Shown here piece by piece: positions 29,094 through 29,843 of a stretch of DNA of 64,000 bases. Origin of the DNA: Aurantibacillus circumpalustris (GTDB taxonomy: Bacteria; Bacteroidota; Bacteroidia; B-17B0; Aurantibacillaceae); assembly GCF_029625215.1 (NCBI RefSeq), contig NZ_CP121197.1:868001-932000 (forward strand), written 5' to 3'. Numbering within the stretch: the first letter of the stretch is position 1; each line of letters starts with the position of its first letter. Below the pieces are notes generated by a model that was not told the DNA's origin, did no database searches, and was given only the letters and a program-made list of their open reading frames with translations. The translations under genes were made by a program, and so were the position numbers.

Positions 29094-29127
29094 AAAAAAA
29101 GGCCTTCGCTTAAAACGAAGACCTTTT
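29094..29127 (-). terminator. terminator after partial tRNA-Arg copy 1
   Basis: On the minus strand GGTCTTCG pairs with CGAAGGCC (one G-U pair) and is followed by a T-run. The same position relative to the intact tRNA holds another terminator (29549-29578), so each copy carried its own downstream unit. Confidence 0.75.
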
Positions 29128-29128
29128 G

Positions 29129-29276
29129 TAGTCCCACTTGGATTCGAACCAAGGGCCGCCGGTTTAGAAAACCGGTGCTCCCTGCCTGCCGTCGCTCCAG
29201 CCTACGTGTCGGCAGGCAGGCCTGCCTGCCGTCGCACAAGCTTGAGCGTCGGCAGGCAGGTATCCAACTGAGCTAT
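29129..29276 (-). pseudogene. tRNA-Arg(UCU) copy 1: 5' end lost, two palindromic inserts in the D-loop
   Basis: The T-arm, variable region and anticodon arm (CCGGT-TTTCTAA-ACCGG, anticodon UCU) are identical to the intact copy at 29580-29653. The D-loop is split by two tandem 40-bp palindromic elements (29181-29260) just before the 3' strand of the D-stem. The first seven acceptor bases are missing: sequence before ATAGCTCAG comes from the end of the GIY-YIG gene. The acceptor stem cannot form, so it should be non-functional. Confidence 0.85.
29181..29260. repeat. two tandem copies of a 40-bp palindromic element inside a tRNA D-loop
   Basis: Copies at 29181-29220 and 29221-29260. Each has perfect 11-bp inverted arms, CCTGCCTGCCG and CGGCAGGCAGG, around an 18-nt variable core; the core of the second copy is itself nearly palindromic around AAGCTT. 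A third copy is at 29698-29737 in the same position of another tRNA copy. Confidence 0.9.
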
Positions 29277-29530
29277 TTATCCAACAATCGCTGCCATTTT
29301 TCTTTTATCTTCTCTTTTCCAATACCCGATTTCCAGTATTTTTCTCTTTCACGAGCTAAAACTCTTGTAGCAAACTGTTCTGTGAAAAATAACTGCCATG
29401 GCTTATAACCTTTGGTAGATGTTGTTTTACCGCTATTGTGCTCATTCAATCTACTTTCAGGATGTTCAGACATGCCAACGTAAAATCGTAAGCCTTTAAC
29501 TTCACTAACAATAATGTAAGCAAAAAACAT
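29273..29530 (-). CDS. GIY-YIG nuclease-superfamily protein
   Basis: An 85-aa single-domain GIY-YIG protein (YhbQ/UvrC-N type). The motif strand AYIIVSEVKG, FYVGMS, catalytic-type Arg in SRLNEHNSGKT, and the Glu in LAREREKYWKSG are present. Such orphan domains are common next to tRNA and rRNA genes in Bacteroidota and are suspected selfish or repair nucleases. Its TAG stop is formed by bases of the adjacent truncated tRNA (the ATAG of ATAGCTCAG), so its end was fused onto the tRNA. It sits between tRNA copies 1 and 2. Confidence 0.85.
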   Translation of the reverse strand: MFFAYIIVSEVKGLRFYVGMSEHPESRLNEHNSGKTTSTKGYKPWQLFFTEQFATRVLAREREKYWKSGIGKEKIKEKWQRLLDK

Positions 29531-29548
29531 GGGTTTTAAATTTTAAGA

Positions 29549-29578
29549 AAATAGCCTTCATGAATATGAAGGCTATTT
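29549..29578 (-). terminator. terminator of the intact tRNA-Arg
   Basis: A 13-bp perfect stem (AAATAGCCTTCAT with its complement) and a 4-nt loop immediately after the tRNA 3' end on the minus strand, followed by T-rich sequence. Confidence 0.85.
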
Positions 29579-29579
29579 G

Positions 29580-29653
29580 TAGTCCCACTTGGATTCGAAC
29601 CAAGGGCCGCCGGTTTAGAAAACCGGTGCTCTATCCAACTGAGCTATGGGACC
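29580..29653 (-). tRNA. tRNA-Arg (UCU), intact copy
   Basis: A full cloverleaf. The 7-bp acceptor stem GGTCCCA/TGGGACT has a terminal G-U pair. D-arm GCTC-AGTTGGATA-GAGC; anticodon arm CCGGT-TTTCTAA-ACCGG with anticodon TCT; T-arm with GGTTCGAATCC. CCA is not encoded. Reads AGA (and AGG) codons. It should be transcribed from the promoter at 29781-29810, unless the truncated copy 3 in front of it interferes. Confidence 0.95.
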
Positions 29654-29676
29654 AATTTTTTGCTTCTAATTTTGTT

Positions 29677-29759
29677 CGGTTTAGAAAACCGGTGCTCCCT
29701 GCCTGCCGTCTCACAAGCCTGCTCGTCGGCAGGCAGGTATCCAACTGAGCTATGGGACC
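29677..29759 (-). pseudogene. tRNA-Arg(UCU) copy 3: 3' half lost, one palindromic insert in the D-loop
   Basis: It keeps the acceptor 5' strand (GGTCCCA), the D-arm and the anticodon arm through ACCG, then diverges into AT-rich sequence 24 bp before the intact copy; variable region and T-arm are absent. One 40-bp palindrome (29698-29737) interrupts the D-loop at exactly the position seen in copy 1. Confidence 0.85.
29698..29737. repeat. 40-bp palindromic element in tRNA copy 3
   Basis: Same 11-bp arms as 29181-29260, with a different 18-nt core. The insertion is between TTGGATA and GAGC of the tRNA. Confidence 0.9.
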
Positions 29760-29780
29760 ATTTTTAATTTTTTGAGATTG

Positions 29781-29810
29781 CAAAGGTAAAAAAAGAAATT
29801 ATTTAAACAA
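29781..29810 (-). promoter_or_regulatory. Bacteroidota-type promoter for the tRNA-Arg cluster
   Basis: On the minus strand TTG (29810-29808), 19 bp, TACCTTTG (29788-29781), about 22 bp before the first tRNA base of copy 3. This fits TTG-N17..23-TAnnTTTG well. Confidence 0.7.
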
Positions 29811-29843
29811 TTATAATTATTTTAGTGCATTAAGCCATTCAAT

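Follow-up and report, generated by a model that had tools for sequence, protein, structure and literature searches.

The tRNA-Arg(UCU) locus of Aurantibacillus circumpalustris described here is probably a mobile element that homes on tRNA genes in the manner of the free-standing homing endonucleases, with a GIY-YIG nuclease as its sole gene. The window analysed is a stretch of 64,000 nucleotides (contig NZ_CP121197.1, positions 868,001 to 932,000), in which the locus occupies positions 29129-29759; every feature of the locus and its flanks lies on the minus strand. A first-pass annotation had reported three tRNA-Arg(UCU) copies, an intact one without insert and two broken ones, with 40-bp hairpins of perfect arms at the same D-loop site of both broken copies and a tandem pair in one of them. 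The coordinates bear this out, the common site being position 22/23 and the pair belonging to copy C. The GIY-YIG ORF located between copies B and C had been overlooked. In window coordinates and in the direction of transcription, the features are the following.

29770-29825, minus strand: promoter-like upstream region of tRNA-Arg, TAATTATAATTGTTTAAATAATTTCTTTTTTTACCTTTGC, now ahead of broken copy A (congener comparison)
29738-29759, minus strand: copy A, tRNA-Arg positions 1-22 (100% identity with the intact gene)
29698-29737, minus strand: 40-bp hairpin of copy A, at D-loop position 22/23 (fold -26.5 kcal/mol)
29677-29697, minus strand: copy A, tRNA positions 23-43, where the copy stops (100% identity with the intact gene)
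29579-29653, minus strand: copy B, the intact tRNA-Arg(UCU) (ARAGORN; Rfam 71.2 bits)
29549-29578, minus strand: terminator-like hairpin with 13-bp arms, 3' of the intact tRNA (inverted repeat I9)
29273-29530, minus strand: ORF of the 85-aa GIY-YIG nuclease, ATG at 29528-29530 (translation, Pfam PF01541)
29261-29276, minus strand: copy C, tRNA positions 7-22, the end of the ORF replacing the first 6 nt (sequence comparison)
29221-29260 and 29181-29220, minus strand: tandem 40-bp hairpins of copy C, at position 22/23 (fold of the pair -61.7 kcal/mol)
29128-29180, minus strand: copy C, tRNA positions 23-75 (100% identity with the intact gene)
29098-29127, minus strand: terminator-like hairpin and T run 3' of copy C (direct sequence reading)

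The intact tRNA is thus followed by a terminator, the ORF and then tRNA positions 7-22, the hairpins and positions 23-75, and a 23-nt spacer separates the end of copy A from the intact gene. The ORF runs into copy C, its TAG stop codon (29273-29275) being at the same time tRNA positions 8-10 (U8-A9-G10). All tRNA pieces of the broken copies are 100% identical to the intact tRNA-Arg; the three hairpins share the perfect arms CCTGCCTGCCG/CGGCAGGCAGG and differ in their centres. The sequence CTGCCTGCC occurs six times in the window, every time at the tRNA-Arg locus, for 0.16 occurrences expected, and a chance origin of the repeated arms at this locus is excluded. ARAGORN and Rfam detect copy B only in the window, and tRNA-Arg(UCU) is single-copy in the genome, a single 4.6-Mb contig where the next full-length match is 77% identical. 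The region TAATTATAATTGTTTAAATAATTTCTTTTTTTACCTTTGC is also found directly upstream of the lone intact tRNA-Arg in most congeners with an empty site. Two known kinds of insertion were rejected: a self-splicing group I or II intron, as Rfam finds only the intact tRNA in the window and the insert is a bare hairpin, and a tRNA-targeting integrative element with integrase and att repeats, as the GIY-YIG gene is the sole ORF inside the element.

That the arrangement reflects a collapsed or chimeric repeat, an alternative named in the first-pass annotation, is hardly conceivable. Identical tRNA pieces could mislead assembly, and some arrays in draft genomes do consist of identical units (L102), but a one-off artefact is excluded by the single contig together with the recurrence of the same architecture across many independent genomes. 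The design is repeated, with a different sequence, in a sister genome (L028/L048) and in more than 100 independent assemblies, and tandem ORF copies are diverged yet selectively constrained.

The protein carries the catalytic domain by which free-standing homing endonuclease elements are recognised: it matches Pfam PF01541 (E=9e-14), and this domain is all that it contains. The AlphaFold model of the 85-aa product has a mean pLDDT of 94.6, and its nearest solved relatives, by sequence and by fold, are the UPF0213 proteins and Slx1. When the ORF was aligned with 16 relatives, Y5, Y17, G19, H31 and E51 were invariant and R27 nearly so, these being the residues at the GIY, YIG, Arg, His and Glu positions; because catalytic residues are preserved to this degree across 17 diverse copies, the product is likely to be an active nuclease. 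No separate sequence-specific DNA-binding domain is recognisable in the 85 residues, which yield PF01541 only. Such a domain is also absent from many stand-alone GIY-YIG proteins, so its absence does not exclude homing, although the element is not classed here as a typical free-standing homing endonuclease. Comparison of loci gives a median dN/dS of 0.19 and comparison of tandem copies 0.15, and premature stops are present in only 11 of 188 ORFs. A dN/dS of about 0.2 and the scarcity of stops indicate that the ORF family is under purifying selection.

The orthologous site is variably occupied. Twenty congeneric tRNA-Arg(UCU) loci were compared, anchored on the neighbouring glycosyltransferase gene. 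Seventeen of them hold a single intact tRNA-Arg(UCU) with the same glycosyltransferase gene alongside and neither ORF nor palindrome, and the ORF is present in three (the window genome, L048 and L051). In the glycosyltransferase tree the three carriers fall within one subclade of eight, where empty sites are found too. This shows a presence/absence polymorphism at the orthologous tRNA-Arg gene, whose direction would be gain, as opposed to precise loss. A gene lying at its own target and relatives free of the element, the situation sought in a free-standing homing endonuclease, are therefore both found at this locus.

Relatives of the element are present in considerably more than a hundred bacterial genomes. 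A single-protein similarity search across about 85,000 species genomes first gave 14 loci in four groups, Bacteroidota, candidate WOR-3/Stahlbacteria, Ignavibacteria and Falkowbacteria. Thirteen of these adjoin an intact tRNA (Arg, Leu, Ser or Val) and the fourteenth a tRNA-like 3' piece; most hold tRNA fragments as well, many of them split by a hairpin. A profile of the ORF matches 234 of the 395 genomes of the class, some of them drafts, and most of its best-scoring matches are tRNA-linked. The survey took 142 distinct loci from the best-scoring matches, in Bacteroidota, WOR-3/Stahlbacteria, Ignavibacteria and Falkowbacteria. An intact tRNA lies within 300 bp of the ORF in 121 of them, a proportion that may be inflated because most of the loci behind the profile were tRNA-linked; for the 37 tRNAs of the window genome, such proximity is expected by chance for about 0.7% of genes. 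ORF and intact tRNA are co-directional in all 121 loci. Their tRNAs belong to 24 ARAGORN types, the anticodon of one being unresolved, and to about 20 anticodon types; in 111 of the loci a tRNA fragment is duplicated close to the ORF. Inspection and library BLAST found tRNA pieces in about 12 of the 21 loci lacking a called tRNA. Other non-coding RNAs were discarded as targets, since in 20 uncalled loci Rfam found one tRNA only and most hold tRNA pieces. A viral, phage or plasmid carrier was likewise discarded, as no relatives of the ORF were found in the IMG/VR, phage and plasmid collections (tblastn for phage and plasmid).

The tree of the nucleases follows the tRNA target. On a tree of the 142 ORFs, built on about 80 columns, tRNA isotype requires 38 changes, compared with 83 when shuffled (minimum 74 of 500), and host family requires 101, compared with 112. 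Ten tRNA-Met elements from eight host families form one clade with 99% support. The low number of isotype changes and this clade across eight families thus indicate lineages dedicated to particular tRNA targets, another feature of free-standing homing endonucleases. With WOR-3/Stahlbacteria copies the window ORF shares 56-57% identity, hardly less than the 60% it shares with the ORF of a congener whose flanking gene is 78% identical; such near-equal identity to distant and congeneric copies suggests transfer. The discordance with host family on the ORF tree could also reflect old paralogous lineages with losses, not transfer.

The insertions obey simple rules. Two layouts exist, tRNA, ORF and tRNA 3' piece (70 loci) or tRNA 5' piece, ORF and tRNA (51), and in either the element supplies the part that completes the gene, so that one intact tRNA is left. 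Of 47 inserts that part two successive tRNA pieces, 42 lie in the D, anticodon or T loop (null expectation 50%, p=9e-9). The break is in the T loop in 14 of 25 elements with the ORF after the tRNA and in the D loop in 14 of 22 with the ORF before it, and 40 of the 47 inserts have a stem of at least 6 bp. The first-pass annotation had proposed the D loop as the target; it is indeed the site used in the window, but T and anticodon loops serve too. The strand rule, the loop preference and the empty sites cannot jointly arise from the limits of the survey, of the draft genomes or of the tree. A system acting on RNA was also weighed, in which the nuclease cleaves tRNA loops and the hairpin-bearing pseudo-tRNA RNA is a guide, decoy or antidote, in the style of a toxin-antitoxin or tRNA-defence system. 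It would agree with break points that match the loops of the folded tRNA, with the constant co-direction of ORF and tRNA pieces and with a catalytic-domain-only nuclease of the Slx1-like, structure-specific group. Yet the hairpins vary in length and sequence, in some elements no more than a short end of the tRNA is left, and empty sites, tandem units and the regeneration of an intact tRNA are signs of DNA insertion. To our knowledge, all GIY-YIG enzymes of known activity are DNases. Moreover, no parts of tRNA genes are more conserved in sequence than the D and T loops, and an enzyme that recognises DNA by its sequence could therefore yield the same pattern. An RNA-level system is hence a distinctly improbable explanation.

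An intact tRNA that is hit again and again should give rise to tandem arrays of an ORF and a tRNA piece, and such arrays comprise three diverged units in L110, ten units of 457 bp in L102 and seven units in L153. The L102 units (G132 contig 9, 905200-911400), each a GIY-YIG ORF with a tRNA-Met 3' piece, sit behind one tRNA-Met gene, and nine have identical profile scores. Other units have no ORF: a tRNA 5' piece, a hairpin and a repeat of the upstream flank lie ahead of intact tRNAs in L219, L250, L252 and L253, and to these are added copy A of the window and ten 89-bp copies at the tRNA-Val locus of the window genome. The ORF is therefore not needed to maintain hairpin units, and the ORF-less units would be non-autonomous derivatives. 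Replication slippage at tRNA genes, with a nuclease gene for cellular repair that became fixed close by and no mobility at all, would account for the tandem order of the copies and for spacers that repeat the tRNA upstream flank (L250, L252). It is nonetheless very improbable, given an ORF family found at many tRNA types, in many families and in other phyla with target-specific clades, its absence from the orthologous site of 17 congeners, and the three other-type GIY-YIG genes of the window genome, which have no tRNA within their 3-kb neighbourhoods.

Further associations were seen in the same genome and elsewhere. A second element of the window genome (L019/L020, genome 2149700-2151400) has two GIY-YIG ORFs after tRNA-Val(UAC), and the ten 89-bp tandem copies of the tRNA 5' piece lie ahead of it; there a TCCCGACTAACGTCGGGA hairpin replaces the anticodon arm, and the ARAGORN call of tRNA-Cys(ACA) at the hairpin-bearing 3' copy is spurious. 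The third (L021, genome 760300-760720) consists of tRNA-Ala(GGC), a GIY-YIG ORF and a tRNA-Ala 3' piece with a TCCCGACTCGGGTCGGGA hairpin instead of the anticodon loop. A different GIY-YIG ORF without tRNA (L022, 1142959-1143177 and flanks) lies within a longer dispersed repeat, CCTTGCAGAGATTCCTTCGGGTTTGTTCTTTACACGCGGTTGCCTCGGAATGAC, and is possibly another association of GIY-YIG and repeat. On a Falkowbacteria contig, an ORF-less 3' copy of a tRNA-Ile is split in its T loop by CCTGCCTGCCGGCAGGCAGG (L039:5891-6044), and a separate tRNA-Val element on the same contig carries an ORF.

The palindrome itself behaves differently from the ORF. The first-pass annotation had attributed the targeting of tRNA genes to it, and of that proposal the mobile agent at tRNA loops, the D-loop site and the half-tRNAs stand, but the palindrome as targeting agent does not: the same family is present off tRNAs at genome positions 301727, 797137, 2721370 and 3307937, and what stays constant is the GIY-YIG ORF alongside. 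When one palindrome per genome was sampled, about 5 of 21 were tRNA-linked and about 16 were not, so that the preference which had been anticipated is far above chance and yet concerns a minority; as most copies lie elsewhere, the palindrome was rejected as a tRNA-specific element. The perfect 20-bp palindrome CCTGCCTGCCGGCAGGCAGG occurs at non-tRNA sites in many Bacteroidota genomes (L204-L222 sample), with up to 50 matches of the pattern in one of them (G031). The hairpin-in-D-loop arrangement is found in 8 of the 395 class genomes and in none of the reversed control, and each match away from contig ends adjoins an intact tRNA. Unrelated hairpin families (CCCGCCCG.., TCCCGA.., TCCGAAGGA..) take the same positions in other elements, those with TCCCGA..TCGGGA arms in other elements of the window genome and also as a dispersed family. 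Different dispersed families thus fill the same place, which indicates that the hairpin is interchangeable between elements. Its exact placement within the broken copy suggests a function at the junction, where it may block re-cutting, block recombination with the intact copy, or have been captured at the break.

These properties bear on the reverse relation of hairpin and ORF, in which a REP/MITE-like hairpin, moved on single-stranded loops by a Y1 (RAYT-type) transposase or a host enzyme, enters tRNA loops and the ORF is a later passenger. The hairpins do belong to families dispersed in the genome, and as such show the imperfect palindromes typical of REP/RAYT systems; the genome has two Y1_Tnp genes, and ORF-less hairpin-in-D-loop units adjoin intact tRNAs. 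Neither Y1_Tnp locus, though, is flanked by copies of the window palindrome, and RAYT/REP was rejected as the mover for this reason; unrelated hairpin families sit at the same tRNA positions, palindromes are mostly outside tRNAs, and the ORF tracks tRNA type and is under purifying selection. A palindrome-driven origin consequently seems unlikely.

Under the favoured reading of a nuclease-driven tRNA-homing element, the nuclease would break or nick an element-free tRNA gene at a loop, here at the D-loop boundary 22/23. Repair from an element-bearing copy would insert the ORF together with the tRNA sequence that completes the interrupted gene. An intact tRNA would thereby survive beside a broken one, with the hairpin at the junction inside the broken copy, which it probably guards against a second cut or recombination with the intact one. 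Copy A (tRNA 1-22, hairpin, 23-43 and spacer) would be an ORF-less miniature of the same kind. The intact tRNA beside the ORF still holds the presumed target, and the host would have to avoid the cutting of this surviving gene; recognition of flanking sequence or low activity are guesses at how it is protected. The chances are evenly balanced for a wider proposition, namely a widespread class of minimal elements, rich in Bacteroidota and present in other phyla, in which a stand-alone, Slx1-like GIY-YIG nuclease is aimed at the loop structure of tRNA genes, with tRNA-dedicated lineages, a junction hairpin, tRNA regeneration and ORF-less miniatures. Recognition may then be structural, of a folded tRNA gene or cruciform, and not by sequence.

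If true, this would give a name and a mechanism to many GIY-YIG ORFs and half-tRNAs beside Bacteroidota tRNA genes, and tRNA fragments and tRNA-overlapping ORFs in such genomes would be parts of elements, not annotation noise. The element would be among the smallest autonomous mobile elements known, for which an essential single-copy tRNA gene becomes a safe landing site. Whether a bare GIY-YIG domain reads tRNA loops by sequence or by structure becomes a testable question.

Among open-licence PMC papers no earlier description of chromosomal tRNA-loop GIY-YIG elements was found, the matches being limited to SegB and to homing endonucleases of mitochondria or phages, in agreement with the initial impression that no family with this target had been described. 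Several known systems nevertheless share part of its features. REP/RAYT systems and other dispersed bacterial palindromes resemble the window hairpins in being GC-rich, imperfectly palindromic, about 20-40 bp long and scattered over the genome. The window palindrome differs in that it is placed exactly at a junction in a tRNA loop, next to a GIY-YIG ORF and with no adjoining RAYT, and in that several palindrome families unrelated to one another fill this role. Integrative elements directed at tRNA genes by a tyrosine recombinase also insert into a tRNA gene, regenerate an intact tRNA and accumulate in tandem. The present elements differ in having no integrase, in a unit of about 350-450 bp with one nuclease gene, and in insertion at loops with an added hairpin. 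Slx1 and the stand-alone Slx1-like or UPF0213 GIY-YIG proteins of prokaryotes (PMC1564403) resemble the window nuclease in their minimal catalytic domain, and are its nearest solved relatives in sequence and fold, but they are cellular proteins. Slx1 cuts branched DNA, an activity that could suit cruciforms or folded tRNA genes. Text searches of the superfamily survey revealed nothing that ties stand-alone GIY-YIG domains to tRNA genes or to mobility.

Of the characterised enzymes, SegB of the T-even phages comes closest; it is a free-standing homing endonuclease of the GIY-YIG type (PMC13096335; PMC2988022). Its cleavage motif is RAWTSGAAC (PMC13096335), which by our reading is the reverse complement of the tRNA T-loop consensus GTTCSAWTY. 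It also promotes tandem amplification, through recombination between a tRNA 5' region and the segB 3' region (PMC13096335). SegB and the window nuclease share the GIY-YIG domain, the lack of an intron and a gene that adjoins tRNA genes, and SegB cuts inside tRNA genes. SegB is a phage protein, whereas the window ORF is chromosomal and its family occurs in Bacteroidota and other phyla; the window protein is reduced to 85 aa of catalytic domain; elements of its type form target-specific lineages with many tRNA targets; and the window element is inserted inside the tRNA gene, which is regenerated, and has hairpins. By analogy, the window element would work like SegB.
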